This document shows, in pieces, positions 2,357 to 36,719 of a stretch of 36,721 nucleotides of DNA. A program made the translations under genes and the position numbers. The DNA comes from a virus, in the IMG/VR virus record IMGVR_UViG_3300046010_013454, positions 1 through 36,721 of that record; one strand, 5' to 3'. Positions within the stretch are counted from its first letter, which is position 1, and each line of letters opens with the position of its first letter. The notes under the pieces were generated by a model. It did no database searches. It had not been told where the DNA came from and worked only from the letters and a program-made list of their open reading frames with translations.

Positions 2357-2568
2357 AAGTGGGATCTTTTTGGAAGTGGGATCAAAAAAGAACTGGGATC
2401 GGGAAGTGGGATCTTTTAGGAGATCCCAGTTAATAAGTGGGATCTGGGATCTAAGTGGGATCTGGCTTATAGGCTTGCGCTATCTATGCTTGAGTGTTCT
2501 TTCGCTTTGTACTTCGATCCCACTTCTGTAAGTAACTGGGATCGAAGTGGGATCGAGTAAGTGGGATC
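2357..2568. repeat. Array of twelve AA(G/C)TGGGATC sites, candidate transposition enhancer/operator
   Basis: Copies of the ten-base word AAGTGGGATC or AACTGGGATC start at 2357, 2374, 2391, 2404, 2435, 2453, 2534, 2545 and 2559. A variant with CTGGGATC lies at 2442-2451. Inverted copies are GATCCCAGTT (2422-2431) and GATCCCACTT (2516-2525). Spacings are irregular, from 11 to 18 in the dense parts, so it is not a CRISPR. In Mu, the internal activation sequence and operators lie near the repressor gene and are bound by both MuA and the repressor. Position and clustering match that role. Every copy contains GATC. The right part overlaps the repressor's 3' coding end. Confidence 0.7.
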
Positions 2569-2817
2569 TAAATATATATCCTCTAAATTTTCTGGCATTT
2601 CGATTTCCTCGCTTACCAAGGACAAAAACATATGCCTAGCATCAGATGGCAGTGCTTTAAGTATCTTGATGAGGTTTGATGCTTTTAGGTCTCTATTGTT
2701 GTTTCGATAGCGGGAAATTGTCTCAGGATTCACTCCGCTTGCGGCTGCAATTGATTTCGCTTCTAAATCAAAGAAACGAAACACGAAATCCAATGCAGAA
2801 CCTTCACTCATAACCAT
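2467..2817 (-). CDS. Phage repressor, XRE-type helix-turn-helix
   Basis: The protein has 116 residues with a helix-turn-helix at about 18-45 (AKSIAAASGVNPETISRYRN), the lambda-Cro/XRE pattern. It is divergent from the Ner-like gene and transposase, the place of the Mu c repressor, and should hold the lysogenic state. It differs from Mu c, whose N-terminal domain resembles that of MuA. Its C-terminus is read through four of the GGGATC repeats (2516-2568), so the last 34 or so residues may be repeat-derived. ATG at 2817 or 2811 are both possible (AAGG lies just upstream). Likely binding sites are the TTGAC-N6-GTCAA palindromes at 2831 and 2921. Confidence 0.8.
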   Translation of the reverse strand: MVMSEGSALDFVFRFFDLEAKSIAAASGVNPETISRYRNNNRDLKASNLIKILKALPSDARHMFLSLVSEEIEMPENLEDIYLDPTYSIPLRSQLLTEVGSKYKAKEHSSIDSASL

Positions 2818-2830
2818 TTGCCTTTGTCTT

Positions 2831-2936
2831 TTGACTAATAAGTCAACTTTATGTTTTTAGCATAGACTACACTCTTTGTTATTTAGTTGCATCTTTCGTC
2901 AAATGATTGCGCTTTAGTGATTGACTTACCCGTCAA
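2831..2936. promoter_or_regulatory. Paired operators TTGAC-N6-GTCAA in the divergent switch region
   Basis: TTGACTAATAAGTCAA (2831-2846) and TTGACTTACCCGTCAA (2921-2936) share five-base arms and a six-base centre; their centres are 90 bases apart. A weaker third copy, TTGCATCTTTCGTCAA, lies at 2887-2902. They sit between the repressor and Ner-like starts, one next to each gene. They are expected to be bound by one or both of these HTH proteins, possibly with looping. The sites are seen; the binder is inferred. Confidence 0.75.
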
Positions 2937-2949
2937 CTGTATGTACTAT
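2921..2949 (+). promoter_or_regulatory. Early promoter candidate
   Basis: TTGACT (2921-2926), a 17-base spacer and TACTAT (2944-2949) form a plausible sigma-70-type promoter about 27 bases before the Ner-like ATG. The -35 box is the left arm of the operator at 2921-2936, so a bound repressor would block polymerase directly. Confidence 0.65.
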
Positions 2950-2976
2950 ATGTTTAGTGAATGACGGCTGTAAAAA

Positions 2977-3207
2977 ATGACGATAAGTGAATTTTTAACT
3001 GAGCCGCTCTCGGAAATCGCGAAAACAACTGGCGTAAATAAAAGCCAATGGTGTCGCTACTTTAAAGGGCAGCCATTTACGACAAACACTTTAGATCGTG
3101 CTGCTCAAAAGCTGAATATGGCTCCTCATGAGTTGTTTCTTGCGATTGAGAAGCGGCGCGAACTTGCCAAAGGTGGGCGTTATGCACCTAGAAGGGTGGC
3201 AGCATGA
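2977..3207 (+). CDS. Ner/Cro-like helix-turn-helix regulator
   Basis: This 76-residue protein has a compact HTH, with LSEIAKTTGVNKSQWCRYFK at about residues 10-30, followed by helices and a basic tail (RRELAKGGRYAPRR). It is the first early gene, just before the transposase, where Mu places ner. Ner lowers early and repressor transcription once lytic growth begins. Its TGA overlaps the transposase ATG (ATGA), so translation is coupled. It is similar in size to Mu Ner (75 residues), but the fold here looks XRE-like. It could instead be an excision or activator protein. Confidence 0.75.
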   Translation: MTISEFLTEPLSEIAKTTGVNKSQWCRYFKGQPFTTNTLDRAAQKLNMAPHELFLAIEKRRELAKGGRYAPRRVAA

Positions 3208-5465
3208 GCGAATGGTTTAGCGCTTCCGAGTTGGCTGGATTGCCATCAATGCCAAAGTCCAAAAGACTTGTAAATTTGATGGATAAAACGGGCTGGATCT
3301 CTCGCCCAAAACAAGGTAGAGGGGGTGGTATTGAATACCACATTTCCTCTCTGCCTGAAGAAACAAAGGCTTTTTTGGCTGATAAGTTTGGCGATCGCGC
3401 CGAATTGTCCACAATTGTGGAGGATTTCAAACCAGCTACTGACCTTGAAGTGGTTGAACTCAATAAAGTCCAGAGGTTGGTTGATGAGCTTATTGCTGCT
3501 GACCATGTTGTTGACGGTAACAAAAACGCTGACGACAAGACTTTTGAGATGCCAGTTGAGAGCGATAAGAGTACGGCGGTAACGCTTGCTCGGCTTAAGG
3601 TTGTGCAGATGGCTCAAAATTACCTGATGGATCGTAAGGCGATTAGCCCCAAGGTTAAGAAGGTGGCTTGTTATGAAGAGTTTGCAGAGAAGGTTGAAGC
3701 GGGTGAGATCGAGCTTCCTGAGTTCGTGCGAATCGGGCTAACTACCGCTCAAGGCAAACTCAAATTATCTCGCGCTTCCCTCACTAATTGGGAAGGGCAA
3801 AGCCTTAAAGAACTAGCCCCAAAGCATCAAGGCAAAGAATCTTTTTTTGATTTGCGCCCTGACTATGCGATCGCTGCTGAAGCTGTATCGCGTGAGTTCG
3901 GGGCGGCTGCGAAGATTTTGCAACATGCCTTTGAGAGCGGATTGATTAAGGAGCATTTCGGACTTGAGGAATGCCCAACCTATAGCCAGATCGTTTGCTG
4001 GCTGAAGAAGCAAGAAGAGACTAACAAACAGCGTCAACGTGCCTTTAGGACTGGCGACAAGTCGGTTTTACTGCCTGCACTTGGCTCCTATTCCAGAGGT
4101 TTATTACCTAACCAGAAATGGGAGATCGACAGTACCAAAGCCGATCTTGCTACTAAGAAAGAAAATGTGGTTTGGCTTTCGAGTCCCTTTGGTGAAGCAC
4201 CTGTAAGGGCTTCGCTAGTGGCTTGCATTGATGTTGCTACTCGCATGGTGAAAGTGCTGGTAAGACCAACATCTAATAGTGAGGCTCTGTGCCTTGTGTT
4301 GGCTGAGTGTGTGAAGGATTGGGGCTTACCTAAGTTAGTGAAGACTGACAACGGGAAAGACTACATCTCGAAGCATGTGAAGGGCTTCCTAACGGCGATG
4401 GGCATTGAGCAGAAATGCTGTGTTGTTCGCCAGCCTTGGGAGAAGCCACACATTGAAAGATTCATGCGAACTTTGCAACATTCGGCTGAGTGGCAAATGC
4501 TGCCTTGGAGTACTGGGCATAGCGTTGCAATGCAACAGGCTCTACGCAAGCGGCGCGATGGTGACTTGGTTTTACCTTGGACGATCGCTGAGTTTCAAGG
4601 CTGGATCGATAAGTGGGTGGATAGTTACCACTCGCGAGTCCATGAAGGCTTAGGGATATCACCGATGGCAAGGCTGGCAAGCTTTCGGGCTGATGGGTTT
4701 GTGGCTTTGATGCCTAAGAATCTCGAAGAAACACTGCTATTCGCAATGATGCGAGAGGACACTGTAACCGTGAATAAAGGAGGGATTAGCTATCAGGGGC
4801 GGCTTTATGTGGCTACGGAATTGATTTCTCACTTTGGTGAGAAGTTGGCAATCCGTATCGATCCTGATGATGTAAATCAGATTTTGGTGTATTCAACCAC
4901 CAATCTGAGCAAAGCTCAATTTATCTGCAAAGCCAAGTGGGATTTGGCTCTCACTACTGAAGAGCAAGCAAGGATCGCTAGTGCGAAACCTGTGGCAAAT
5001 CAGTTGCTGCAAGAGCGAGAAAAGGCTGTTAAGGATGGCGTTCGCAAAATCAAGAAGGAGATTGAGAAACATCCTGAAAGGTTGATTAGAGGTGGTGGTG
5101 TTGCGGCGCTCAAATCCGTACAGGAAGTTGAGTTAACCAATGCCAATCTCATCAAGCAAATTGATGCGGCGGCAAATATGCCTGTGGTGAATACTGATGC
5201 ACCTGAGATGCAAGCTAAGCGCCAAGAATGGCTTGATATGCAAGCTAAGAAGGATGCTGAGAAGCCTGTGGTTGAAGAGGTTCGGAGTGGTCGCGATTGG
5301 TTGCGTATTTGGCAAATGAGCGATCGCCCAATTAACGAGACTGAATGGCTTTTGCAAACCATCGATCTTGGTGGCTATGGCGGATTTGTAGCGATGGTGG
5401 TGAATCTGCCACTTGAGCAAATGCGCGAAATGCTAAATCAGGAATTACGCGATCGGGTGGCGTGA
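3204..5465 (+). CDS. muA: MuA-type DDE transposase
   Basis: This 753-residue protein (Mu A has 663) catalyses strand cleavage and transfer for integration and replicative transposition. The N-terminal winged helix (about 5-62, FSASELAGLPSMP onward) is the type that binds the internal enhancer. A central helical region (about 120-290) should bind the ends. The RNase H-like core has D309 (WEIDSTKAD), D382 (VKTDNGKDY) and E418 (KPHIERF), which gives an exact D-x35-E spacing. A beta-barrel-like region follows (about 510-600), then a charged tail expected to contact the MuB-like ATPase and ClpX. The start overlaps the Ner-like stop. All catalytic residues are present, so the enzyme looks active. 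Confidence 0.96.
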   Translation: MSEWFSASELAGLPSMPKSKRLVNLMDKTGWISRPKQGRGGGIEYHISSLPEETKAFLADKFGDRAELSTIVEDFKPATDLEVVELNKVQRLVDELIAADHVVDGNKNADDKTFEMPVESDKSTAVTLARLKVVQMAQNYLMDRKAISPKVKKVACYEEFAEKVEAGEIELPEFVRIGLTTAQGKLKLSRASLTNWEGQSLKELAPKHQGKESFFDLRPDYAIAAEAVSREFGAAAKILQHAFESGLIKEHFGLEECPTYSQIVCWLKKQEETNKQRQRAFRTGDKSVLLPALGSYSRGLLPNQKWEIDSTKADLATKKENVVWLSSPFGEAPVRASLVACIDVATRMVKVLVRPTSNSEALCLVLAECVKDWGLPKLVKTDNGKDYISKHVKGFLTAMGIEQKCCVVRQPWEKPHIERFMRTLQHSAEWQMLPWSTGHSVAMQQALRKRRDGDLVLPWTIAEFQGWIDKWVDSYHSRVHEGLGISPMARLASFRADGFVALMPKNLEETLLFAMMREDTVTVNKGGISYQGRLYVATELISHFGEKLAIRIDPDDVNQILVYSTTNLSKAQFICKAKWDLALTTEEQARIASAKPVANQLLQEREKAVKDGVRKIKKEIEKHPERLIRGGGVAALKSVQEVELTNANLIKQIDAAANMPVVNTDAPEMQAKRQEWLDMQAKKDAEKPVVEEVRSGRDWLRIWQMSDRPINETEWLLQTIDLGGYGGFVAMVVNLPLEQMREMLNQELRDRVA

Positions 5466-5487
5466 GCATCCGTGCTGAAAAGCAAAA

Positions 5488-5510
5488 GGACTGGCGGTGA
5501 GCGCCAATCC
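5488..5510 (+). other. Hairpin between transposase and ATPase genes
   Basis: GGACTGGCG and CGCCAATCC form a nine-position stem with one mismatch around the loop GTGAG. It lies in the 88-base gap between the two transposition genes. No T run follows, so it may be an mRNA processing or stability element setting the A:B ratio rather than a terminator. Confidence 0.4.
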
Positions 5511-5553
5511 CTTCGAGTACTGAGTCAATTAGTAATGGAATTATATACCCAAA

Positions 5554-6234
5554 ATGAAAACTAATGTCGCGATGACTTTCAATTTGCTGGAGTTCTTGGG
5601 GGCGATCGATACCCTCAAGGATCGCAAAGAACGGATTTTAGTTGCATCTGGTAGAGCTGGATTTGGTAAGACCACGATGATGGTTTTTGCGGCGAATCGG
5701 CATGGTGGTGCAGTGATTACTGCAAACGCTTCTTGGACTGTGAAATGGATGCTGAGTGATATTTGCACCCAGCTAAGCATCCAGCGCTCTGAATCGGTGC
5801 AAAAGATGTATGAAAGCATCGTTGCTCAACTCAAAGTCAGTCAAAAAACTTTGTTTCTGGATGAAGCAAATCTCTTGGTGGAAGGTCGTGATTTTAAATC
5901 GATCTTGACCATCTTGAGCATGATTTATCGCATCCATGATGACGCTGAGATCGGCGTTGTATTCCTTGGTCTAGAGCGCTTTCCTCAATACATTGAGGCG
6001 AGAGCAAAGCAATCCGATAGTATTCGCGCCTTCGATCAGCGTTGTGTTCGCAAGATTGCCTTTAGGGACTGTGGGTTTGAGGATGCGCGATTGATTGCGG
6101 ATGCAAGGTTGGAAGTGCCAATTTCTGATGAGCAATTATCGGCAATTTGCGCCAAGACTGAGGGCAATATTCGCAACCTCATCACCCATTTGACCGATTT
6201 CGAGCGTGTTGAAAAGTCAAAAATCAGGAAATAG
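5554..6234 (+). CDS. muB: MuB-type AAA+ target-capture ATPase
   Basis: The 226-residue ATPase has Walker A GRAGFGKTT (residues 33-41) and Walker B TLFLDEA (99-105). The core resembles the AAA_22-like fold of MuB and TniB/TnsC proteins. Its role would be to bind target DNA with ATP, deliver it to the transposase and give target immunity. Mu B has 312 residues with an N-terminal HTH domain that is missing here, so this is a short form closer to TniB/IstB-like relatives. The downstream winged-helix genes could supply DNA-binding functions. It lies in the operon just after the transposase, separated by 88 bases with a hairpin. Confidence 0.92.
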   Translation: MKTNVAMTFNLLEFLGAIDTLKDRKERILVASGRAGFGKTTMMVFAANRHGGAVITANASWTVKWMLSDICTQLSIQRSESVQKMYESIVAQLKVSQKTLFLDEANLLVEGRDFKSILTILSMIYRIHDDAEIGVVFLGLERFPQYIEARAKQSDSIRAFDQRCVRKIAFRDCGFEDARLIADARLEVPISDEQLSAICAKTEGNIRNLITHLTDFERVEKSKIRK

Positions 6235-6236
6235 CT

Positions 6237-6842: not shown

Positions 6843-7093
6843 CTTTAGATCTGATGGATGGGGTTAAAAACTGTGTGCTGGCGGTGCTGAGAGAGCAAAA
6901 GGCTTGCACGATCGCATGGCTTAAGGTGGCGACTTTTCTTGGTGAAGTGCCTGTTCAAAGTGCAATTCGCGCTTTGGAAAATGACGGTGCGATCGAGCAT
7001 GGCTATCTGACTGACGATGGCGACTGGCTTGAAGATTTTTACGCCGATGAGCATGACCATTTTCCGATTGATGCTTGGAGGATTGCCAAGTGA
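6839..7093 (+). CDS. Small winged-helix-like protein
   Basis: This 84-residue acidic protein overlaps its neighbour by ATGA. Residues 8-55 (VKNCVLAVLREQKACTIAWL to AIRALENDGAIEHG) follow a winged-helix pattern with a helix, a turn, a recognition helix and a short wing. The C-terminus is strongly acidic (DDGDWLEDFYADEHDHF). It belongs to the run of small early proteins after the ATPase. A DNA-mimic or regulator role is possible, but nothing fixes it. Confidence 0.6.
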   Translation: MTLDLMDGVKNCVLAVLREQKACTIAWLKVATFLGEVPVQSAIRALENDGAIEHGYLTDDGDWLEDFYADEHDHFPIDAWRIAK

Positions 7094-8088: not shown

Positions 8089-8090
8089 AT

Positions 8091-8109: not shown

Positions 8110-8139
8110 CTTTGGATAAATTATTTAAGGAGTAAGAAG

Positions 8140-8580: not shown

Positions 8581-9065
8581 TGCGTGATCCTTTGGCGGCG
8601 AAGTTTGAAAAGACGCTCGACCCTTGGCAGCGATCGGCTAGGAAGTTTGATTTCGAGCCTGAGTTTGTGAAGTGGATTCAGAAGTATCTGGAGAAGCTGG
8701 AATGCATTTCTGAGTTGGTGATGGCTAAATCTTGGATTAATGGAGCGAATTTTAATGAAAAACGGCACGATGACTGCACTCTCCAATGGGAGGCTTTCCA
8801 AGAGTCAATTGCAAGTAGACCTGCACTTAAGGCTGTTGTGGCTAACCCTTCTGAGCTTTGCGGCGTTGGTGATTCTGCCCATGAATCTGTTGATCATCGT
8901 GCTGATCATGCCTCGGTGACCTCCCCTAGCCCCTCCTTGGAAGGAGGGGGACAGGATTTGCCTGACCAGTTCAAGAGATTGGATGGCGAATCGGCGCAGG
9001 ATTATCGGGCGCGGATGGCGCGGATTGTTTCGGAAAGTATTAAGAAAGTTGGGAGTTGGTCATGA
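8580..9065 (+). CDS. Hypothetical protein carrying an in-frame palindrome insertion
   Basis: The 161-residue product begins at ATG 8580 (TGATG overlap); GTG 8577 is an alternative. The N-terminal 50 residues are helical (WQRSARKFDFEPEFVKWIQK). Residues near 114-123 (SPSPSLEGGG) are encoded by a GC-rich palindrome (8930-8949) unlike its surroundings and look inserted in frame. The C-terminus, with KRLDGESAQDYRARM, resembles a short conserved tail. It overlaps the methyltransferase start by 4 bases (ATGA). Function is unknown. Confidence 0.6.
   Translation: MRDPLAAKFEKTLDPWQRSARKFDFEPEFVKWIQKYLEKLECISELVMAKSWINGANFNEKRHDDCTLQWEAFQESIASRPALKAVVANPSELCGVGDSAHESVDHRADHASVTSPSPSLEGGGQDLPDQFKRLDGESAQDYRARMARIVSESIKKVGSWS
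8930..8949. repeat. Palindromic repeat inserted inside a coding sequence
   Basis: The arms CCCCTCCTT and AAGGAGGGG flank a GG centre, preceded by CTCCCCTAG. The stretch encodes SPSPSLEGGG in frame. Closely related to the element at 9805-9829, both having the AGCCCCTC core. Such in-frame palindromes are known as mobile REP-like elements in several bacteria; a short Pro/Ser/Gly linker is a tolerated product. Confidence 0.7.
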
Positions 9066-10588
9066 TTACAAAGATTGAGTTGCAAGAGCCTGAAAAGATG
9101 GCTATTGGTGAGGTCAAAGACGAGCTGATCATGAGGTTGCATGATGCGTTTTTGCTATTTCGCGAAGATCAGTATCATGTATCGGCTAAGGCGTTTGGTG
9201 ATGCTGAGAGCGGGGTTAAGGATGGTGATTTTTCTGAATCATTGAAGGCGCTTAAACCTTGGCTGGATGATTTGGGTAAGAGCCAATCTGAGAATGCTTC
9301 TCGGATACAGGATTTGTTTGATCGCCTTGTTTCCTGGAAGAAGCAACCAGCATCTTTAGCTCTTGCTACTGTTGAGCAGTTTGAACTTATTGAAACTGAG
9401 GTGGTTGATGAGTTTGGGATGTCTCAAAGTGATGTTGAGCGGTTGACTCAGCTTGAGTTTGCGATTGATAAGGGTCGGACGCTGATTGGTGACTCTTTGC
9501 GTGAGATTCGGGATGCTGGTTTGTATAAGCAGTACGGCACTTTTGAGCAGTACTGTGAGAAAAAATGGGGCTTTTCTAAGTCTCGCGCTTATCAGCTTAT
9601 TGGTGAGGCTAAGGTTGTCCACAATTTGTTGGCAAGTGGGATTGAGCCTGATGCTTTGCCTGAGAACGAGGGACAGGCTAGGGCTTTGGCGGCTGTGCCT
9701 CCTGAGAAACAGGCTGATGTGTGGAAGCAGGCTAGTGCTGAGGGTAAGGCGACGGCGGCGAAGATTAAGGCGATCGCTAGTGGGGGATCTGCCCTCACCC
9801 CCAGCCCCTCTCCCAGTGGGGGAGAGGGGGGCAAGAGTAGCCCTGAGATGATTGATGTTTCTATTAGCTATAAAACCCATGGTGTTTTGTCGATGAATCC
9901 TGTCCCTGATGGGTTTATTGAGTTCAATGGCTATGTGATCCCAGTTGGGGAAGCTAAGGCGACTCAAAAGGCTTTGAATAAGGCTTTAGCGGCGCTAGAT
10001 CAGGCTCAAGATGATGATGGCGACTGGGATAAGAATCTTTGGGAGACTCCTGACAATATTGCTAGGGCGATCGCTAATTTGCTTCGTGGTGGGCAGTCGA
10101 TTTGTGAGCCTTGTGCTGGGTCTGGACAGATTGCTAAGGCGATCGCCTCTCTTTTTGAGGAAAAGGGCTGGGAGTATGAGCTTACGGCTATTGAAATCCT
10201 GAAAGAACGGGCGGCGAAGCTTGAGGATAATCGCTATTTCTCTATTGACGCGAACTTTTTAGAGTTTGATTTTGGGTCTGATACTTTTGATGTGGTTGTT
10301 ACCAATCCACCTTTTGATAGGGGATTGGAAATCTTAGAGAAGTCGCTATCTCTTTTGAATATCTCAGGGCGGTGTTTGTTCTTGCTGCCGATCGCTTATT
10401 TCCAAACCCAAGAAAGGGCTAAGCAATTTGCGGGTATGGGCGCTTACATCCACAGGATTTATCCGATTGTGGGTCGCGTTGCTTATCTCAAGAATGGGAT
10501 TCCTGAGAGTGGCAGGCAGTGCGAAGATGCGATTTTTGATATTCGCAGGGGCAAAAGTTTGAATGGTGTGGAGTTTATATGGCAGTAA
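9062..10588 (+). CDS. ParB-like/HTH domain fused to adenine-type DNA methyltransferase
   Basis: ATG 9062 overlaps the previous TGA; 508 residues. Residues about 120-240 form a ParB/DUF3102-like helical part (LIGDSLREIRDAGLYKQYGT, WGFSKSRAYQLIGEAKVV), a host-factor-like DNA-binding module. A linker containing TPSPSPSGGEGG (about 246-257) is encoded by a palindromic repeat. From about 323 a class I methyltransferase follows: EPCAGSGQIA (349-358, SAM-binding motif I) and NPPF (415-418, catalytic motif IV of N6-adenine or N4-cytosine enzymes). It probably protects phage DNA from restriction, the job done by Mom in Mu, or marks GATC-type sites. Target specificity cannot be read. Confidence 0.85.
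   Translation: MITKIELQEPEKMAIGEVKDELIMRLHDAFLLFREDQYHVSAKAFGDAESGVKDGDFSESLKALKPWLDDLGKSQSENASRIQDLFDRLVSWKKQPASLALATVEQFELIETEVVDEFGMSQSDVERLTQLEFAIDKGRTLIGDSLREIRDAGLYKQYGTFEQYCEKKWGFSKSRAYQLIGEAKVVHNLLASGIEPDALPENEGQARALAAVPPEKQADVWKQASAEGKATAAKIKAIASGGSALTPSPSPSGGEGGKSSPEMIDVSISYKTHGVLSMNPVPDGFIEFNGYVIPVGEAKATQKALNKALAALDQAQDDDGDWDKNLWETPDNIARAIANLLRGGQSICEPCAGSGQIAKAIASLFEEKGWEYELTAIEILKERAAKLEDNRYFSIDANFLEFDFGSDTFDVVVTNPPFDRGLEILEKSLSLLNISGRCLFLLPIAYFQTQERAKQFAGMGAYIHRIYPIVGRVAYLKNGIPESGRQCEDAIFDIRRGKSLNGVEFIWQ
9805..9829. repeat. Palindromic repeat inserted inside methyltransferase gene
   Basis: CCCCTCTCCC and GGGAGAGGGG form a ten-base perfect stem with loop AGTGG, preceded by CCCTCACCCCCAG. 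It encodes a Pro/Ser/Gly linker between the ParB-like and methyltransferase domains. The word series resembles the CCTCACCCCCAGCCCCTCTC family scattered in cyanobacterial genomes (recalled, not searched). Confidence 0.75.
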
Positions 10589-10920: not shown

Positions 10921-10929
10921 CTAACGAAA

Positions 10930-14898: not shown

Positions 14899-15360
14899 TT
14901 ACAGGCTGAAGTAATTGGCGGCTAAACTTTGGATTTCCTCTACTGCATCGGGCAGTAAATCACCATCATCGGTGATGGGGAAAAATGGTCGGGCGGGGAT
15001 GTTGCGGCGCGGCGCTCCAAATTGGTGGATGCTTCCTAGGTCGTAACTCCCTACTGGGCGGTTAGTCTTGACGATCGCAGTGTCGTTAGTCGCTTCGGCG
15101 GCTATGGTGTCAAATAGCTGTCCTGATTGCTGAAGTATGCCGTTGCGCTTGGTTTTCTTGTCTTTTGCCTTGCGTGCTGCATACTTAGGATTGAGCGCCG
15201 CAAACTTGCTGCCGTCGGGCGAAGTTTGGGTTTTGATGGCGTTTCGTGCTTCATCGGCTAGGAAGTTTGCGATCGCGGTCATCAGTGGGCGCGTTGGTCG
15301 CTCAAAGTTGGTGAATACTGAGCGCAGTTGAGCATCATCTAGAGAAAAATTTAATTCCAT
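14899..15360 (-). CDS. Virion morphogenesis protein, Mu gpG-like (gp31)
   Basis: The 153-residue protein fits the Mu G / phage virion morphogenesis family, related to tail-completion proteins. It has a helical N-terminus, then SPDGSKFAALNPKYAARKAK. ILQQSGQLFDTIA and SIHQFGAPRRNIPARPFFPI follow; the last is the diagnostic IHQFG...IPARPF block. In Mu, G follows F directly. Here it lies on the same strand but is separated from F by the XRE/antirepressor cassette and a terminator. It starts five bases after the XRE gene's stop, so it is probably transcribed with it. Confidence 0.88.
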   Translation of the reverse strand: MELNFSLDDAQLRSVFTNFERPTRPLMTAIANFLADEARNAIKTQTSPDGSKFAALNPKYAARKAKDKKTKRNGILQQSGQLFDTIAAEATNDTAIVKTNRPVGSYDLGSIHQFGAPRRNIPARPFFPITDDGDLLPDAVEEIQSLAANYFSL

Positions 15361-15365
15361 ATTTC

Positions 15366-15578
15366 TTACTTGACTTTGCTAGTTTCTTCTACAGCTTGCT
15401 CTAGCTCTTCAAATGTGCAGTTGTATAGGCGTAATAGTTTAGCAATCTGATCAATCCTTAGCCTTGGTATAGTTCGTCCTTGCTCCCAATTCCATACCGT
15501 AGACGCAGTAATACCAAGAGCTTCGGCAACATCTTCAACTCTAATACTTACTTTTTTCCTTAAATTTCGCATACTCAT
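15366..15578 (-). CDS. XRE-family transcriptional regulator (second repressor-like gene)
   Basis: This 70-residue protein is a classic Cro/CI-type HTH: VEDVAEALGITASTVWNWEQ then GRTIPRLRIDQIAKLL. It is divergent from the operon with the antirepressor (15715-16559), forming a compact switch inside the late region. It is a different subfamily from the main repressor at 2467. It stands immediately upstream of gene G, which is unusual for a head gene. A second in-frame ATG two codons on is possible. Confidence 0.9.
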   Translation of the reverse strand: MSMRNLRKKVSIRVEDVAEALGITASTVWNWEQGRTIPRLRIDQIAKLLRLYNCTFEELEQAVEETSKVK

Positions 15579-15590
15579 AAAACTAAGGAC

Positions 15591-15623
15591 TTGACAAAAC
15601 TGTAAACGTGTTCATAGTATACA
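15591..15623. promoter_or_regulatory. Overlapping divergent promoters of the XRE/antirepressor cassette
   Basis: On the plus strand TTGACA (15591-15596), 18 bases and TAGTAT (15615-15620) suit a promoter for the 15715 operon. On the minus strand TATACT (15621-15616) lies 19 bases downstream of TTGGAC, for the XRE gene. Both share the TAGTATACA word also seen in the promoter at 13856, so one regulator may act on both. Confidence 0.6.
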
Positions 15624-15629
15624 CATATA

Positions 15630-15674
15630 TTAAAGGCGCTGTCCAAGAAGTCGAAATCTAAACAGCGCCTTTAA
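15630..15674. promoter_or_regulatory. Leader stem-loop, possible attenuator
   Basis: TTAAAGGCGCTGT and ACAGCGCCTTTAA are perfect 13-base arms around a 19-base loop. It lies in the 5' leader of the plus-strand operon, between its promoter and the ribosome site (AAGGAGGGG, near 15695). It is followed by only a weak T/A stretch, so partial termination or mRNA control is possible. Confidence 0.55.
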
Positions 15675-15714
15675 TTCAAAAATTTACCAGTCCCAAGGAG
15701 GGGCTAGATTTTTT

Positions 15715-16062
15715 ATGACTGAAACTCAGTCTAGTGTGTTCCCAGAAAATTTGCAAGAATCTGCCCATCCCCATGATGAGCAGGTGACTGTAACTCTTGA
15801 TGAGGCAAAGGCAAAGGTAGAGCGTGAGCCTAGATACAAGTTGATTGCACTTGATGCAGGGCTTGCGAATATAGCTTCTTTGCTGCATGTCGCTTACAAG
15901 TCTGCGGCGTTTGAAAACAACGACTATCAAGAAGAAATCTTCAACAAGTCGATTGGCAATGGTGGTGATCAGGTGTTGCTGCAACGCATCCTTGATGAAG
16001 TCGAGCTTTGCCATGAGCAAGTCATGGATCTACGTTTACAAATTACTGGAGGTGTTGAATGA
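15715..16062 (+). CDS. Hypothetical protein, first gene of antirepressor operon
   Basis: The 115-residue protein has an acidic disordered head (MTETQSSVFPENLQESAHP) and a helical rest (YKLIALDAGLANIASLLHVA, VLLQRILDEVELCHEQVMDL). No family recognised. Good ribosome site upstream. It overlaps the antirepressor by ATGA. The pairing with an XRE gene and an antirepressor-like gene suggests a partner in regulation, or an unrelated passenger. Confidence 0.6.
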   Translation: MTETQSSVFPENLQESAHPHDEQVTVTLDEAKAKVEREPRYKLIALDAGLANIASLLHVAYKSAAFENNDYQEEIFNKSIGNGGDQVLLQRILDEVELCHEQVMDLRLQITGGVE

Positions 16063-16559
16063 TGAGTGCTGCTGAAATCTCGCAAAACTACGTGTTTGGG
16101 TTGCTCCAATCTGAAGAGCAGTTCCCAGTTGACTTTGATGTTGCTTGGGCTTGGCTCGGTTACACAAGGAAAAGCAATGCTAAAGACAAGCTTGTTAAGA
16201 GCTTTGTTGAAGGTCAAGACTTTTGCCGCAAGTGGAGCAAAAGTCCAGACGGTGGGCGTTCCAAGCAATTGATAATGTTAACAATTAACTGCTTCAAGCA
16301 GTTAGCAATGATGGCAGGAACCGAAAAAGGCGCAAGCGTTCGTCGCTACTTTCTAGACTGCGAAGAGAAGCTGAAGCAGATTGGTGGCTCTGGGAAGGTT
16401 GATGTGCGAATCACCATCGATCAAGCCCGTGAGATGAACAATCCAGCCTTGAAGCAGGCAACTGTCAAAGAAAAGGTGAAGCTGTTGGAAACGGTGGAGC
16501 GCTTTTTGGATAAGTATCCCGATTGCTCCAATGTCGTGAGGCAAATCTTCAAGGATTAG
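16059..16559 (+). CDS. AntA/AntB or MSV199-like phage antirepressor
   Basis: The 166-residue protein carries the domain of phage antirepressors: an N-terminal FDVAWAWLGYTRKSNAKDKL, then VEGQDF. LIMLTINCFKQLAMMAGTEK and VRRYFLDCEEKL follow. A C-terminal helical part (about 125-165) probably oligomerises or binds a partner. Such proteins inactivate prophage repressors, often non-cognate ones. Its targets here could be the XRE protein at 15366, the main repressor or a co-resident prophage. It is followed by a strong terminator. Confidence 0.85.
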   Translation: MMSAAEISQNYVFGLLQSEEQFPVDFDVAWAWLGYTRKSNAKDKLVKSFVEGQDFCRKWSKSPDGGRSKQLIMLTINCFKQLAMMAGTEKGASVRRYFLDCEEKLKQIGGSGKVDVRITIDQAREMNNPALKQATVKEKVKLLETVERFLDKYPDCSNVVRQIFKD

Positions 16560-16560
16560 A

Positions 16561-16616
16561 TTCTCATAAAAAAAACAGGCTCAGAGGTTTTCTCTGAGCC
16601 TGTTTTTTTATGAGAA
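16561..16616. terminator. Bidirectional terminator between antirepressor and gene F
   Basis: A very long near-perfect stem (including ACAGGCTCAGAG and CTCTGAGCCTGT) has a GTTTT loop, and each strand ends in a T run. It stops plus-strand transcription after 16559 and minus-strand transcription after gene F, whose stop codon lies inside the stem. It therefore cuts F from G. Confidence 0.92.
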
Positions 16617-17384
16617 GAATTTTAGTAAGGACTGAATGGCATTATCGATCCTCTTACCCCAGGAACGCGGTAAGCGCTCCTTAATCCTAGCCAGATTGAC
16701 AATCCTCTGCTCGGCGTTACTTGATGGCGCGGCATTAAAGCCAGTATCAGGCTCGATAATTGCTTGCTTAGTCTGCCCATTACCATCCACATAGGGCAAA
16801 GTATCACCAAGGGCAATTTGCTCCACATCTAGCCCCTTTTTATCAAGCTGACGTTGGGATAGAGATACCATGCTGCATCCACAATTAAATCCATTGGGCG
16901 GATAAATGCTGCTCACGATGGGATCGTCTTTGCGGAATACCTTTCCATCTAAAGCAACGTGTGCAGGTCTAGGGGCGCGAGAATCTGAGTGCAGATATTG
17001 CAAATAGGGTTGCAACTTCATGACATCACGATCAAACTGCTGATCGTGCCTTCCTGCGGCGTAGGATTGGCGTAAATTCTGGGTGAGGATGAGCCTTGCT
17101 CTCCAATCTGCGCCGCCCTTGATATCCCAGCCATACTGCTCTGAGAAATTGGCAATCTGCGCCGCAAATTCGGGCGAGTCGTAGGGTGTGCCGTTTTGAA
17201 TGGCGCGAGTTACCGATTTTTGCAGATCGCTGACCAGAGTTGCATCAACTGCGCCCGCACTCCAAAACGCGGCATTGGCTTCTGAGTCTTTGTAATCGTT
17301 CCAGCGCTCAGATGGCAAAGCGATCCTATTCTCAAGGTAGGAAATTGCTTCATCAAATGGCGCGGATTTGTAATCAAATGCCAT
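16608..17384 (-). CDS. Mu F-like head morphogenesis protein (gp30)
   Basis: The 258-residue protein matches the phage Mu F / minor head family. Its diagnostic block is RPAHVALDGKVFRKDDP, then YPPNGFNCGCSM, the PPNG.xCxC motif (residues about 150-190). An ARLILTQNLRQSYAAGRH helix precedes it. F proteins attach to the portal and are ejected or stabilise the capsid opening. At 258 residues it is shorter than Mu F (about 440), lacking a C-terminal extension. Its start overlaps the portal gene's end by 11 bases. Confidence 0.92.
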   Translation of the reverse strand: MAFDYKSAPFDEAISYLENRIALPSERWNDYKDSEANAAFWSAGAVDATLVSDLQKSVTRAIQNGTPYDSPEFAAQIANFSEQYGWDIKGGADWRARLILTQNLRQSYAAGRHDQQFDRDVMKLQPYLQYLHSDSRAPRPAHVALDGKVFRKDDPIVSSIYPPNGFNCGCSMVSLSQRQLDKKGLDVEQIALGDTLPYVDGNGQTKQAIIEPDTGFNAAPSSNAEQRIVNLARIKERLPRSWGKRIDNAIQSLLKFFS

Positions 17385-19194
17385 CTGCCTCCGCCTCCTC
17401 TATCCCTGCAAGATTCGCTACGCGATCCGCCTGTGCATATTTGGTGGCTAGCTCTTGGCGACTGCGCTCCATGCCTTCAAATATCCCTGCAAATCGCTCT
17501 TGAAACTCCACGGCATCGGCGCTCTCTGCATAGGCGAGATTTATCCGCTCTTGCCACTTGGCGGCATGGGCGGCGTAAGCATCTATAAGCTCTGGATTAG
17601 AGGCGATTTGCTCTACTGTGTCGGGTTCTTTGGGGCGATCGGCAAAATCATAAATCTCACCACTGCGGATGCTTCGGCTTCGCTCAGCAACCGTCTCTGA
17701 GAATTGAGCGTTAGGGGCGTTATTTTGGCTTTGACCTTGTGTTGGTATCTGCGGAGGTGGTGTCGTGTCCTGTGGCGCTAAATTTTGCGGTTGTGGTTGA
17801 TTGCGGATTGGTGCGATGATCGCTGTTGCTGCTTCCAAGGTTACGCCCATCGTATTTACCATGATCTGAAGCAAGCTGTCAGGATTCATTTGTCCTGTGC
17901 TGGCGGCGGTAATCATTGCAGTTAGCGATTGAAGCTGTGCGCCATTGAGTGTTGATTTATTAGCGTCGTATTCGTAGCCATCGCCATAGATCTCTGTGAA
18001 TTTCTCAGGTGTTAGCCTTCCGCCCAAATCAATGATTTCTTTATCGCGCTTGACTCTGGTATCAATGTCCTTTTCAGGCTCAGTGCGATATCGGATATAG
18101 GGCGCGTTTGCTTTGGGGAAATTATAGAAGGTGATTGGTACGGATACATTCTGATAAAAGCTTTCGCTGAAGAAGTCGCCATCAGCAACAACAATATCGT
18201 TCGCAACGTTCTCATGGGTTTCGGCTGTGCCTGCCCATGCACCGTTCTCAGTGGTTCCTGATTGCCCCAAAATCAGGAGCGTGATCGCGTGATCGCACCG
18301 TTCCTGTAAGCCTGCAAAATCGGCTGTGCCTCTAGTGGTTTGCAGTAATTCGGCTGCAAAGCCTTGAGCTAGGGAAATTGAGCGCCCCTCTCCAAGTGCT
18401 TGGGCTAATACCTTAGCTTTGTCTTTTTCTTCTTTGAGGGCATTTGCAGGATATTCTACTTTGGCGCTTGGGCGTGAGAAATTGTCTAGGAAGTTTAGCT
18501 CATGCCTTGTCGCGCCTCTTTTAAAGAGGGTCAGCCAGTAAAGGATTTGGTCTAGCCCTTCACCATAGGGATTGTCGCTATTGTCGCCACCGCATCGCAT
18601 TACCCATGCGCGAGATTCGTGGATCGGTTCACCTTCGTACATGTTGCCAAGGGTGATTAATCTTGGCTTGCCTTCTTTGTCGAATTTGATGCGATCGCGT
18701 CGCCTTACCTTGATGGCTCCTTTGCTGATATCCAGATAAATCAAGCCATCAGCTTTCTTAGTGAGCATTTTCTCGCCAAGACTAAACCCGTAATGCCTGC
18801 AAAACATCATCTTGGTGGTGATGTCATCCATCGGGATTTTGTTGATATTAAATTGCGCGGCATCTTTGTCTATCGATGGCTTTGGCATCTGGACTCGCCA
18901 CCAGTCTGCGGCGGCTTGGTCAATTGCTGAATCAGATGCGGCAATTACTTCAATAGGAAATCTAATCAGTCTGCTAAATCTTTGAAAGTAACAGGCTGAT
19001 ACATGGGGATCTTTGCGGACTTTTGTATAAATATCAAGGTATTCAGCACCATTGCCACCATGCTGATCGAGTACGGGATCTTGTTTGTCGAGTAGGGGCA
19101 GTAGATAGCCGCGAGTGATGTCGTTATCTACGCCTGCTATTTCTGCATCCAGTAGCGGAGTTTTCTGCTCTTTGGTCAAAAAGTCATCAGCCAT
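17374..19194 (-). CDS. Portal protein, Mu gp29-like (DUF935)
   Basis: The 606-residue protein has typical DUF935 portal features: an N-terminal part DIYTKVRKDPHVSACYFQR, RDRIKFDKEGKPRLI, NPYGEGLDQILYWLTLFKRG, and LILGQSGTTENGAWAGTAE with downstream helices. It should form the dodecameric ring for DNA entry. The C-terminal 180 residues are Gln/Pro-rich then helical, the long tail that interacts with F. It lies between terminase and F in Mu order. The gap to terminase is 3 bases. Confidence 0.93.
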   Translation of the reverse strand: MADDFLTKEQKTPLLDAEIAGVDNDITRGYLLPLLDKQDPVLDQHGGNGAEYLDIYTKVRKDPHVSACYFQRFSRLIRFPIEVIAASDSAIDQAAADWWRVQMPKPSIDKDAAQFNINKIPMDDITTKMMFCRHYGFSLGEKMLTKKADGLIYLDISKGAIKVRRRDRIKFDKEGKPRLITLGNMYEGEPIHESRAWVMRCGGDNSDNPYGEGLDQILYWLTLFKRGATRHELNFLDNFSRPSAKVEYPANALKEEKDKAKVLAQALGEGRSISLAQGFAAELLQTTRGTADFAGLQERCDHAITLLILGQSGTTENGAWAGTAETHENVANDIVVADGDFFSESFYQNVSVPITFYNFPKANAPYIRYRTEPEKDIDTRVKRDKEIIDLGGRLTPEKFTEIYGDGYEYDANKSTLNGAQLQSLTAMITAASTGQMNPDSLLQIMVNTMGVTLEAATAIIAPIRNQPQPQNLAPQDTTPPPQIPTQGQSQNNAPNAQFSETVAERSRSIRSGEIYDFADRPKEPDTVEQIASNPELIDAYAAHAAKWQERINLAYAESADAVEFQERFAGIFEGMERSRQELATKYAQADRVANLAGIEEAEADGI

Positions 19195-19197
19195 TTT

Positions 19198-20544: not shown

Positions 20545-20733
20545 TTAGTTATCTACAAACTCTTGGGGACAAAATGGATTGCAAATCAAGGCTTTTGGGC
20601 GCGAAGTGCTAGAGATTAGCTCTACTTCGATAAATTGCGGTTTTGATGGGCTTGAATTAAGCCTGCTACCGCAAAGAATGCAGTAATTTTTAGGCGATCG
20701 CTTGATAGAAAAGGGTGGAGCATTTGCAGTCAA
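20545..20733 (-). CDS. Possible small zinc-finger protein between terminase genes
   Basis: In the 217-base space between the terminase genes a minus frame encodes KNYCILCGSRLNSSPSKPQF, then ALICNPFCPQEFVDN. This is C-x2-C and C-x3-C, a plausible zinc site. No ATG exists; TTG 20733 is assumed. The frame stays open further back into the small terminase gene. The stop is directly before the large terminase ATG (TAAATG), which supports coupling. Because the start is weak and the family unknown, it stays tentative; a Com-like regulator is one idea. Confidence 0.4.
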   Translation of the reverse strand: MTANAPPFSIKRSPKNYCILCGSRLNSSPSKPQFIEVELISSTSRPKALICNPFCPQEFVDN

Positions 20734-20761
20734 GATTTTTGTAAACAATTTGTGGACAAAG

Positions 20762-21313
20762 CTAAGACACAATTCCGTAAATCTCTTCGCGAATGACTCG
20801 CAAAGTCTCTTGATCGATGCCAGTACGAGGGGCGATGTCTGCGAATTTAGCCTCAATCTTGGACTTGACCTCATCACGATACTTGGAAATTGTGATGTCT
20901 GAGGTTGAGGCTCTGCTTAGTGCTAAGCCGATCTGATTGTAGAGATTGGCTTTTTGCTTTACCGATAGCTCTTCATCACTAAGCCCTCTCAAGTCCATCT
21001 GAAGCTGAAAGATCGAGTCACCCAATAACCTTAAGTTTGCCTGTGAAGTCGTTTTATCCTCATCAGGAAAGGCTTCCATCAGATAGGCGCTAGCTTCCTG
21101 TGACTCCCTGATTTCATCTAGGAGTTTCTTTAGTTTTTGGGCTTGCCTGTGCAGAGTAGATCGAGAGAATTGCACCTCAAACCCAGATGATTCAAGGATG
21201 CTATTGATTTCTTCGGTGAGTCCGTCAAAATCGGCAAAGTTGCGATCCTTGAATAGCTTGTGGATTTGGGTTTTGATTGCCTCTGGCAAGGTGTCGAATA
21301 GCGATCGCTTCAT
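20762..21313 (-). CDS. Small terminase subunit, Mu gp27-like (DUF3486)
   Basis: The 183-residue helical protein fits the DUF3486 pattern: FDTLPEAIKTQIHKLFKDRN, GLTEEINSILESSGFEVQFS then RSTLHRQAQKLKKLL, an HTH-like N-terminus. A long helical middle (LGDSIFQLQMDLRGLSDEEL) follows. It should recognise phage DNA and hand it to the large subunit for headful packaging. Mu recognises its left-end pac site, so the analogous site here would lie within the first hundreds of bases. It overlaps the gp26-like gene by 4 bases. Confidence 0.88.
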   Translation of the reverse strand: MKRSLFDTLPEAIKTQIHKLFKDRNFADFDGLTEEINSILESSGFEVQFSRSTLHRQAQKLKKLLDEIRESQEASAYLMEAFPDEDKTTSQANLRLLGDSIFQLQMDLRGLSDEELSVKQKANLYNQIGLALSRASTSDITISKYRDEVKSKIEAKFADIAPRTGIDQETLRVIREEIYGIVS

Positions 21314-21630
21314 GGCTTAAACCATTCTTGGGGAGGTCTTTCGATGCTTGTAGGACAGTTATGATCGGGGCTGTATTCCACCAAATCAATTGATTTATGA
21401 GTTCTGGTCGCGTGCTTAATCCCTGAAGGCAGATCTTCAATATTGCAGTATCCCAAATCTCTTAGATAGAAAAGCTGTTCTCTGATTTCGGCATTTGAAA
21501 GCCCGTACTTCATCGAATCGCAAATAGACTTAAAGGTGTTTTCGTTAGCACCCGTTTCGCCCCAATTGTAAAGGCAAAGGATTATGGCATAACGAATCTC
21601 CCTAAGCTTGATGTTCTTTAATTGGTTCAC
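21310..21630 (-). CDS. Mu gp26-like winged-helix protein
   Basis: The 106-residue protein lies between the membrane coiled-coil protein (gp25-like) and the small terminase, as Mu gp26 does. It has a winged helix (about 10-70: REIRYAIILCLYNWGETGAN, NAEIREQLFYLRDLGYCNIE) and a Pro-rich end. The role is unknown even in Mu. It overlaps both neighbours by four bases. Confidence 0.7.
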   Translation of the reverse strand: MNQLKNIKLREIRYAIILCLYNWGETGANENTFKSICDSMKYGLSNAEIREQLFYLRDLGYCNIEDLPSGIKHATRTHKSIDLVEYSPDHNCPTSIERPPQEWFKP

Positions 21631-22058
21631 GACGACTTGCCCCTTAAAATTATTGCCATGATTTCATCAAGTCTCTTATGCAGAGAGTCCAGCTTCAAAT
21701 CTGAAGTTGTTTGATGTTTTAGGTAATCCTCTCGATCTACGTACTTATTGCTGAGTTCGATAAATCTGCGATCTATTTCTGCTGCGCGAAAATCTGCGGT
21801 TCTTTGATGATTGTGAAGAGTGTCTTCAAGCCCTTTAATTTCTTTCTTTAGGTTAGAAATCTCAGTTTTTAGCTCTTTGTTTGTGTCTTCGTACTGCCTT
21901 ATAGAGCGTGATACAAACCATTTGACAACGCCAATAGTTGCGCCGCCAACTAGGACGGCTGAACCAATTAGGATTTGCTCAACGCTAATCGATATCTGTC
22001 CTGATTGCGACGGGTTGGGCTGTGCTGCGGCAATTTGTGCAATGTAATGATTTTTCAC
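21627..22058 (-). CDS. Mu gp25-like (DUF2730) membrane coiled-coil protein
   Basis: The 143-residue protein has one membrane segment (about 28-50: ILIGSAVLVGGATIGVVKWF) and a coiled coil behind it (about 58-95: NKELKTEISNLKKEIKGLED). DUF2730 proteins have this layout and stand just upstream of the small terminase in Mu-like phages. It is the first gene of the inverted packaging operon. A role in lysis or membrane-associated assembly is possible; the family function is not known. Confidence 0.75.
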   Translation of the reverse strand: MKNHYIAQIAAAQPNPSQSGQISISVEQILIGSAVLVGGATIGVVKWFVSRSIRQYEDTNKELKTEISNLKKEIKGLEDTLHNHQRTADFRAAEIDRRFIELSNKYVDREDYLKHQTTSDLKLDSLHKRLDEIMAIILRGKSS

Positions 22059-26499: not shown

Positions 26500-26502
26500 A
26501 GA

Positions 26503-29215: not shown

Positions 29216-29252
29216 TTAAGTGCTGAATAGCAAATATATCTGTGATTAAGTG

Positions 29253-34744: not shown

Positions 34745-34759
34745 TTTAGGAGAATCAAA

Positions 34760-35143
34760 ATGGGACATGGCAACGCCTTTGGCGACTCGCAAGCGCAAAA
34801 TATTCAGATCGCAATTGATCAAGGAACGGGCGCTGGTAAGCTGAAAATTTACACGGCTACTTTTGCCACACTTTTAGTTGAGTTTGAATTACCTGATCCG
34901 TGCGCTCCTACTGTTGTTACTAATGCTAAAAAGATAGTTCTCAATCCAATCACTTCAGTTAATGCTGTAGCTAGTGGCGTTGCTGCGGCTTACAGACTAA
35001 CAGATAGCGATGATGTCACAATCTATGAACAAGACAACCAAGTTGGGATTAATGGCAGTGGTAGACAGCTAATCATGAATACCACCACAATTACATCAGG
35101 AGTCCCCCAAAACGTTGTTAGTCTTGAGATTGGGTATAGCTAA
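34760..35143 (+). CDS. Tail-tip or fibre-associated protein
   Basis: A 127-residue beta-rich protein with a strong ribosome site (AGGAGAATCAAA). Gly-rich start MGHGNAFGDSQAQNIQ, then YTATFATLLVEFELPDPCAP and a Thr/Val-rich end. It could be a small fibre or tail-tip subunit. Functional evidence is positional only. Stop overlaps the next ATG (TAATG). Confidence 0.6.
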   Translation: MGHGNAFGDSQAQNIQIAIDQGTGAGKLKIYTATFATLLVEFELPDPCAPTVVTNAKKIVLNPITSVNAVASGVAAAYRLTDSDDVTIYEQDNQVGINGSGRQLIMNTTTITSGVPQNVVSLEIGYS

Positions 35144-35892
35144 TGGACAATCTCACCCCTAGTCAAAAAGTGCGGCTCCAGCTTGAAAAGCAAATGACTC
35201 AAGATGCGATCGCTCGTCTTGAAAAATACGAGCGCGAAAACAACTCTATCTTGCCTACATTCATGGGTGAGAATGGCAAAATTAAGCGATTAGGGCACGG
35301 TGAGAGTCGGACGGCGATCGCTACAAATCTTTTTTACGGTATAGGCGAAGAGATGCGCCCTATACCAGTTAGAGGCGGCTTGCCTATGGTTGACAATAAG
35401 CCAAGATTAGCGCCCCCTATCGCAGCCATCCCAGAGCCGCCCATTGAAGTTATCTTTGCTGAGTATGGTTTCACAATTGGAGCTGGTATTCAAGGCGATA
35501 TGGGCGCTGGTACAGAAACCCTAAGCGCATTTGGCAGTACTAGCTCACCAGCATTTTCAGAGGTTACAGGTGGATTATCAGGTGAGTACGATCTTTTTGG
35601 TCAGATAGACGGATTAACAGGATATTTCACTGGGACAATTTTAGACACAGCAACAGAAATTTGGTCTTTTGGGGGCGGCGCTGCATCTATAAACTTTACA
35701 CTTACAGATCCGACCATACTATTTATTACAGTAAGGATCGAAGCTGGATCTCAATTCTTAGAGCAAGAGATAGATCTTGAAGGCTTAGGCTCTGCGATTG
35801 TTGGCTTTGATCCACCACCTGAGCCATCACTATTGCTATTCCCCGCCACTTTGAATTATTCCGTAACTTTCAGTAATCCAAGGAGAGAGTAA
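35143..35892 (+). CDS. Tail-associated protein with beta-rich C-terminal domain
   Basis: The 249-residue protein has a charged helical N-terminus (KVRLQLEKQMTQDAIARLEK), a Pro-rich linker (RLAPPIAAIPEPPIEVIF) and a C-terminal Gly/Thr-rich beta domain (GAGIQGDMGAGTETLSAFGS). The C-terminal half looks like a lectin-like or fibre-type module. No family recognised; it may carry receptor-binding functions. TAATG overlaps both ends. Confidence 0.6.
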   Translation: MDNLTPSQKVRLQLEKQMTQDAIARLEKYERENNSILPTFMGENGKIKRLGHGESRTAIATNLFYGIGEEMRPIPVRGGLPMVDNKPRLAPPIAAIPEPPIEVIFAEYGFTIGAGIQGDMGAGTETLSAFGSTSSPAFSEVTGGLSGEYDLFGQIDGLTGYFTGTILDTATEIWSFGGGAASINFTLTDPTILFITVRIEAGSQFLEQEIDLEGLGSAIVGFDPPPEPSLLLFPATLNYSVTFSNPRRE

Positions 35893-36152
35893 TGCAGACA
35901 GATTCAATCCGCGATCGCCTATCTCGTACCTTTACCCAATCAGCGATCGCCCTTAAGAAAAGAATCACACAAGATGAAAATCAGCAAACCTTTGCCGCCA
36001 CTTTATTGGAGGGGAACAAAGTAAAGCTACCAGATGGAAGCACACGCACAGCCTACAATCAAGGCACGCGACAGGTGCTGATAGGGGATAGTGTTTCGGT
36101 TGTTTTTCCCCTGCATTCTCAGATTGGTTACTACACAAGCAAAATCAGTTAA
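35892..36152 (+). CDS. Small hypothetical tail protein
   Basis: The 86-residue protein is helical at first (IRDRLSRTFTQSAIALKKRI) then beta (KVKLPDGSTRTAYNQGTRQV). The C-terminal beta part, ending VVFPLHSQIGYYTSKIS, resembles OB-like or KOW-like small barrels. It is preceded by AGGAGAGAG and overlaps the previous gene. Function is unknown. Confidence 0.55.
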   Translation: MQTDSIRDRLSRTFTQSAIALKKRITQDENQQTFAATLLEGNKVKLPDGSTRTAYNQGTRQVLIGDSVSVVFPLHSQIGYYTSKIS

Positions 36153-36154
36153 AT

Positions 36155-36640
36155 ATGCCGCAGCAAATAACCCTTGAGCTATCAGGAATCAGCTTAATCC
36201 TTGATAGGTTTTCTTCCTACACACCACGCCAGACCATAGATGACCAAAGGGCTAGCTTTAGCACGTCACCATTTGGCGCTTCAGTGATTGAGTCTGTGGC
36301 TTTTGAGCCTAAGAATGTATTTCGTTTCTCTGTGCTAACTACCGATAGCGACGTTGTTACGGGATTAAAAAAGCTTGGTTTGGAGCAAAAGGCTCTGATT
36401 GATGCAGGCACGTTTAATGGCTTGGTTTGTACCGATGAGATGAACAGGTTCATTGAGAAAGCTGATGCGGCTACAAGGCAAAAAGCTGCTGAAGCTGAAG
36501 TTGATGAGGATGATGGCTATATCAGCTATTGGGCTAAGTTCAATGTTGGGATGGACTTATCTCTTGGCGATCCTAATGGTAAGGCTGATGTGTTGAACGT
36601 AATTCTCATTGAATTAGATAAGCTAATTCCTTCCTCTTAG
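36155..36640 (+). CDS. Hypothetical protein at the right edge of the late operon
   Basis: The 161-residue protein begins two bases after the previous stop. It has an N-terminal strand region (QITLELSGISLILDRFSSYT), a helical middle with Ala/Glu-rich ADAATRQKAAEAEVDEDDG and a C-terminal ISYWAKFNVGMDLSLGDPNG. No family recognised. It is the last gene before the right terminal repeats, where transposable phages often put tail fibre or modification genes. Confidence 0.55.
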   Translation: MPQQITLELSGISLILDRFSSYTPRQTIDDQRASFSTSPFGASVIESVAFEPKNVFRFSVLTTDSDVVTGLKKLGLEQKALIDAGTFNGLVCTDEMNRFIEKADAATRQKAAEAEVDEDDGYISYWAKFNVGMDLSLGDPNGKADVLNVILIELDKLIPSS

Positions 36641-36644
36641 TTTG

Positions 36645-36719
36645 CATTTTTAGATCTAGATCTAAAAATTGAGATCCAGAATTGAAAATTTAAGATCCAG
36701 ATTCAAAACTAAAACTACA
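36645..36719. repeat. Right end with candidate transposase-binding sites
   Basis: CATTTTTAGATCTAG (36645-36659) repeats the left word at 211-225 exactly. It lies in a 22-base perfect palindrome (36647-36668) built of two AGATCT cores. AATTGAGATC (36668-36677) and AATTGAAAAT (36680-36689) also match left-end words, and AGATCCAGA occurs twice. TACA at 36716-36719 is the suggested terminus. Mu's right end likewise packs three sites within about 80 bases. No other feature is visible. Confidence 0.65.

Follow-up and report, generated by a model that had tools for sequence, protein, structure and literature searches.

A GATC-bearing repeat array 3' of the repressor gene of a Mu-like phage is a candidate cluster of transposase sites

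In phage Mu, the transpositional enhancer is bound by the N-terminal domain of the MuA transposase, and the mom gene of the same phage, like the ends of IS10 and IS50, is under Dam control. Among the described systems, saltoviruses have an L/E/R layout (PMC5977238) and phages of the D3112/MP22 type carry TGT termini with three 22-bp transposase-binding sites per end (PMC4378225). Here we describe a virus contig of 36,721 bases with a Mu-like gene set (IMG/VR record IMGVR_UViG_3300046010_013454; the window, by which we mean this whole stretch), in which 12 copies of AASTGGGATC form an array at 2357-2568, overlapping the 3' end of a repressor-like gene and adjoining it downstream. The array resembles the Mu enhancer in that several short sites lie near the repressor gene and the transposase has an N-terminal domain of the same family. 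It differs in that the Mu enhancer is located between repressor and ner, whereas this array and those of the relatives described below lie 3' of the repressor, comprise up to 17 copies and have a lineage-specific unit. As in D3112/MP22-type phages, both window ends display TGT termini and repeated sites, but the array constitutes an extra, internal element at a distance of 2.3 kb from the left end. Based on layout and covariation, we propose, at about even confidence, that it is a cluster of sites for the MuA-like transposase, serving as a transpositional enhancer and/or as an accessory site for left-end assembly.

The array comprises eight AAGTGGGATC, three AACTGGGATC and one TCTGGGATC units, ten copies lying in forward and two in reverse orientation, with irregular spacing. 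GATC is present in all twelve, as a preliminary description of this DNA had stated. Since the invariant core is TGGGATC (12/12 copies), GATC is conserved as much as the preceding TGG, and not more. The proposed array binder is the MuA-like transposase (3204-5465, plus strand), recognized by an N-terminal HTH_Tnp_Mu_1 domain (PF02316, E-value 1.2e-12) and by PF09299 and PF00665. A match to the N-terminal domain solved for the Mu transposase (1tns/1tnt, E-value 3.4e-7), the enhancer-binding domain of that protein, covers residues 2-64 of the window transposase. The transposase would bind the array through this Mu_1 domain, and the array, located between the left end and the repressor gene, would act as an enhancer and/or aid assembly of the left end. 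GATC would then be part of the word recognized in the window lineage, TGGGATC, rather than a methylation device dedicated to the phage enzyme. In a host that methylates GATC, these sites would carry the modification anyway, and the host enzyme could thereby exert a passive effect on transposition.

An alignment-based search for relatives identified 60 bacterial-genome and 80 viral-contig loci (L035-L174), which with the window make 141 candidates. A de novo repeat search was run on 109 of these and a later count of copy-dense stretches on 82; the loci were picked by hand, leaving out duplicates and matches that had little DNA upstream, and the sample is not random. The repeat search showed that other relatives carry arrays upstream of MuA, with different units, and such an array was present in 19 of the 82 Mu-like loci. 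In these 82 loci, 260-base stretches with at least six copies are concentrated in the 3 kb preceding MuA, with 35 of 1639 stretches there as opposed to 4 of 9150 elsewhere. Most arrays lie directly 3' of the divergent repressor gene, overlapping or abutting it, with one intervening gene in L098. The units are nearly confined to the array in all nine phages scanned in pieces, and they differ by lineage, with AASTGGGATC in the window and TAAGTCGGAAC, TAACTCGGACG or TAAGTTTGAAC in others. A word scan detected arrays of AAGTCGGATC in four gammaproteobacterial prophages (four anagram controls gave no cluster), the copies being nearly alike in order, orientation and spacing, and similar spacing with mixed orientation holds across genera. 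No description of arrays 3' of the repressor was found in the open-access literature searched, where the sites mentioned are terminal or belong to an enhancer located between repressor and ner. Besides its TAAGTTTGAAC array, L096 has an 18-base tandem repeat of 13 copies at 254-470, 3.7-3.9 kb upstream of MuA; the L096 array counted here is the one near the repressor, the repeat further upstream being left out.

Comparison with the neighbouring proteins suggests that array units track the transposase more closely than the repressor. Six loci of one MuA clade, L036, L096, L097, L109, L171 and L211, share a single unit family (TAAGTCGGAAC, TAAGTTTGAAC, TAAGTCTGAAC, TAAGTTGGACG, TAACTCGGACG, TAAGTCGGGCG), and their repressors belong to two unrelated classes (that of L211 was not read). 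Thus L109 and L171 on the one hand, and L036, L096 and L097 on the other, combine related MuA proteins and related units with unrelated repressors; L098, the viral copy of L036, was used in this comparison of repressors and transposases. The reciprocal case is provided by L112 and L100, whose repressors are 59% identical and whose MuA proteins are 46% identical overall, the MuA N-terminus and the unit both being different. It is this covariation, with L100/L112 as its one strong natural comparison, that together with the layout argues for transposase sites. If the array is indeed a displaced enhancer recognized by the N-terminal domain of the transposase, these phages would provide a series of naturally matched pairs, each of a DNA word and its DNA-binding domain. 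Such a series would span a large group of Mu-like phages from cyanobacteria and gammaproteobacteria, and would be useful for studying how transpososome recognition evolves.

Several points weigh against the transposase-site reading. The L100/L112 comparison is one pair only, and L099 and L171 share a unit though their MuA proteins are only 45% identical. With its location 3' of the repressor, the array (2357-2568) departs from the repressor-ner position of a Mu-type enhancer, and Mu, MP22 and RS1 have no array 3' of the repressor. The right end of the window lacks a copy of AASTGGGATC, its sites reading TCTGGATCT. Finally, drift of the binding word by itself does not account for GATC recurring in arrays more often than other palindromes.

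An operator cluster for the phage repressor, although unlikely, would account for the location of the element, as most of the arrays examined overlap or abut the repressor gene at its 3' end. In the window, this gene (2467-2817, minus strand) encodes a 116-residue repressor-like protein of the helix-turn-helix (HTH) family HTH_3 (PF01381, E-value 8.4e-6, above the cut-off), and is divergent from a small Cro/Ner-like HTH gene of 76 codons (2977-3207, plus strand) assigned from a weak PF13443 match and from its position. However, the divergent intergenic region between the two genes, 2818-2976, contains two TTGAC-N6-GTCAA palindromes, at 2831-2846 and 2921-2936, which resemble repressor operators and are more typical of such sites than the array units. 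Moreover, unrelated repressors accompany related units in the MuA clade above, and related repressors accompany unrelated units in L100/L112. Both palindromes are free of GATC, which speaks against the earlier suggestion that repression is tuned through GATC by a phage enzyme.

We then turn to GATC itself. The window contains 281 GATC (7.65 per kb) versus 148 expected (standard deviation 9.6), a 1.9-fold excess that none of 100 shuffles reached. It also contains 53 copies of the HIP1 octamer GCGATCGC in 36.7 kb, in keeping with HIP1-rich cyanobacterial DNA, and its host is therefore most likely a cyanobacterium. HIP1 explains part of the window-wide excess, GC being found on at least one side of 117 of the 281 GATC. 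By contrast, such a flank is present at 0/13 GATC of the array region, indicating that the array GATC are not HIP1; the figures for the left and right ends are 2/6 and 0/4. Locally, GATC is enriched in the array region, with 13 in 2339-2570, the array copies being copies of one motif and not 12 independent events, and at the ends, with six in the left 250 bases (Poisson P 0.014) and four in the right 81 bases (P 0.004).

Both ends are indeed GATC-rich, and in this respect the preliminary description, which placed GATC in the end sites, was borne out. The left end (4-250, plus strand) starts with TGTAATTT and has GATC at 26-29 (offset 22), 56, 108, 141, 171 and 219, as well as YGGGAT sites at 43 and 63, spaced 20 bases. 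The right end (36640-36719, minus strand) starts, in inward reading, with TGTAGTTT and has GATC at 36694, 36673, 36659 and 36653. Because both termini begin with TGTA-TTT and have GATC 22 bases from the terminal TGTA (26-29 and 36694-36697), the complete-looking Mu-like phage of the window probably spans 4-36719. The TGT...ACA termini with related end sites agree with the TGT termini described for Mu-like phages (PMC4378225). The host flanks outside the phage ends amount to 3 and 2 bases, not enough for a target duplication to be recognized. Left ends of the gammaproteobacterial relatives have TGTAA termini and GGGA sites about 20 bases apart, like the YGGGAT pair of the window, and in L046 and L061 the left-end sites contain the AAGTGGGA core of the arrays; this sharing of a GGGA core favours the transposase-site reading. 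A GATC at the left terminus is present in L045 and L057 and absent in L046 and L052. The right ends of these prophages were looked for by pattern search and were not located. A search for TGT-N17-20-GATC with clustered GATC returned the right end of the window, L228 and many other hits that are presumably coding sequence. L228 is a contig end of the phage of L100, with GATC at offset 22 and eight GATC in 130 bases; whether it is a true phage end is unsure, and it was not used as evidence. GATC abounds in both contig ends of this Mu-like phage record (L100 1-240 and L228 10020-10155), where the words GATCTCA and TTTTGATCA are repeated; the one in which GATC lies at offset 22 from a TGTA may be a phage end of the window type.

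To compare arrays, we used a set of 22, namely the 19 of the 82-locus count plus L042, L061 and L211, with regions drawn by hand; L058, a simple repeat, and L077 look different, yet were kept in the counts. GATC occurs in at least half of the copies in 9 of the 22 arrays, the highest number among the 16 palindromic tetramers (TTAA 4, ACGT 2, four others 1 each, nine 0), and when counted by transposase lineage GATC equals TTAA, with 4 of 9 each. The unit is devoid of GATC in L036, L040, L096, L097, L100, L101, L109, L112, L171, L211, L058 and L077, and in L046 only two of six copies contain it. GATC is thus dispensable in arrays, which still leaves it a possible role. In L099, six of 14 copies touch a GATC, and this array is labelled as having no GATC unit on the tree and as GATC-bearing in the tetramer count; at 9218-9382, its unit TAACTCGGACG alternates with GATC spacers (CGGACGATCTCGGAC). 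The MuA tree groups the window with L035 and L095 in a single supported clade (98/97), with a warning from the tree program that the long branches of the window and L095 may be falsely joined. Every array copy of these three phages contains GATC (12/12, 7/7 and 12/12, respectively) and the rest of the unit differs, GATC being the only unit element common to all three. On this tree, the GATC-unit label requires at least three changes, two of them forced by well-supported branches. Taken together, these observations suggest that the recurrence of GATC in arrays is perhaps non-random.

Control by host methylation is a distinctly unlikely reading of the array. In this scenario, Dam-type methylation of the clustered GATC, by DmtA in cyanobacteria and by Dam, perhaps with SeqA, in gammaproteobacteria, would tune binding of the transposase or repressor, and hemimethylation would couple transposition to replication. 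It draws on the rank of GATC among the tetramers, on its being the sole shared element of the window clade and on its identical offset in both window ends. In addition, a strong PF02086 homologue is present in 10/10 host genomes of relatives searched, irrespective of whether the array contains GATC. With the exception of one group, nearly all cyanobacteria are reported to carry dmtA (PMC4390886). A host like these would methylate the GATC sites with or without the phage enzyme. However, the arrays of L036 and L040 are free of GATC despite Dam-type host genes, L046 retains GATC in a minority of copies, the left-terminal GATC of L045 and L057 has no counterpart in L046 or L052, and part of the enrichment is host HIP1 background. 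GATC in or near the transposon ends recalls the Dam-controlled ends of IS10/IS50 and Mu mom, but it is not conserved among the relatives of the window, whether in arrays or at left termini. The array feature is real and the GATC excess is in part ordinary, and the recurrence of GATC in arrays leaves room for a contribution of host methylation. If GATC methylation matters, Dam-type control of transposition would extend to phages and cyanobacteria. More doubtful still is a broader proposal, in which a class of Mu-like phages with dense, fast-evolving transposase-site arrays 3' of the repressor would have gained GATC independently in several lineages, allowing host Dam/DmtA methylation and hemimethylation after replication to gate transpososome assembly or early expression.

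It is very unlikely that the array is a functionless repeat grown by slippage, its GATC being due to chance and HIP1 background. L097 and L098, with perfect 11-base tandem repeats, L040, with 7-base repeats, and L058, with its 8-base simple repeat, would suit such an origin, but the fixed location upstream of MuA, the mixed orientation with similar spacing across genera and the irregular spacing in the window would not.

The preliminary description had attributed control of the GATC sites to a phage NPPF methyltransferase fused to a ParB-like domain. The protein in question (9056-10588, plus strand; 510 residues) consists of an N-terminal helical module and a C-terminal methyltransferase domain (about residues 325-495) with an S-adenosylmethionine-binding motif and NPPF, as in N6-adenine enzymes of this type (phrog_799, E-value 1.9e-23; Pfam matches all below cut-off); the methyltransferase assignment stands, and the ParB-like label has no Pfam support. 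Its AlphaFold model is poor (mean predicted local distance difference test score 53.7), the better part being the helical module at residues ~120-242, and the class-I enzymes listed by Foldseek, including the N6-adenine DNA methyltransferases M.TaqI, M.BseCI and CamA, are therefore only a hint; a sequence search of PDB with the methyltransferase gave no match. Unlike these enzymes, the phage protein has a C-terminal domain of only ~180 residues, so that an added DNA-recognition domain of usual size seems absent, and it has no Dam homology, PF02086 (Dam/D12) having no match in the phage record. Its sequence discloses no recognition site. Among the records of 17 relatives, the methyltransferase domain was matched in two, the phage of L099 (42% over residues 294-509, with NLPF replacing NPPF) and, weakly, that of L100, and neither unit has GATC in all copies. 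The domain was not found in the other seven phages with GATC units, the L095 record being an incomplete fragment. The N-terminal module occurs without the methyltransferase, on its own in the phage of L095 and, in the L035 genome (Petrachloros), linked to a GemA-like region, the GemA likeness being a reading of the sequence by eye. This mobile module was seen at 9056-10588 of the window, L206 1363-2178 and L207 1492-2094. That the phage enzyme methylates the GATC sites and thereby controls repression and transposition is highly improbable: its co-occurrence with GATC sites in one genome, its NPPF motif and the low-confidence fold list speak for it, and its place outside the Dam/D12 family, its distribution, the NLPF of its homologue, the GATC-free operator-like sites and the methylation expected anyway from a host with DmtA speak against it. 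The earlier proposal was thus partly supported, GATC being real, repeated and recurrent in array and ends, as judged from 9 of 22 arrays and from the window clade, while its link to the phage methyltransferase was not upheld.

The remaining features concern the gene set and the closest records. MuA-type transposase, MuB ATPase, GemA and Mor are all present, the MuB-like ATPase being encoded at 5554-6234 (plus strand; phrog_296, E-value 1.2e-29). Late open reading frames at 14899-22058 (minus strand) are presumably gpG-like, gpF-like, portal-like and terminase-like. This block is inverted relative to Mu: the plus strand carries the early genes as well as the capsid and tail reading frames that come later. 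The 2.3-kb cargo region between the left end and the array carries a PNK3P/HAD-type phosphatase gene (293-898, minus strand). Single-protein scans of viral_contigs with MuA, the methyltransferase and MuB gave no relative with the early region of the window. A terminase scan returned six loci; two of them, L021 and L022, are close, yet neither extends as far as the array, the L021 record ending ~29 bases short of the right end. A scan of viral_contigs with the array word gave 12 loci; one of them, L013, was set aside as a tandem repeat, and a match to the window MuA was found in L015 only. L015, an isolate prophage, shows 44% identity to the window MuA near its N-terminus and has two exact AAGTGGGATC copies at 9453-9482, near its apparent left end.

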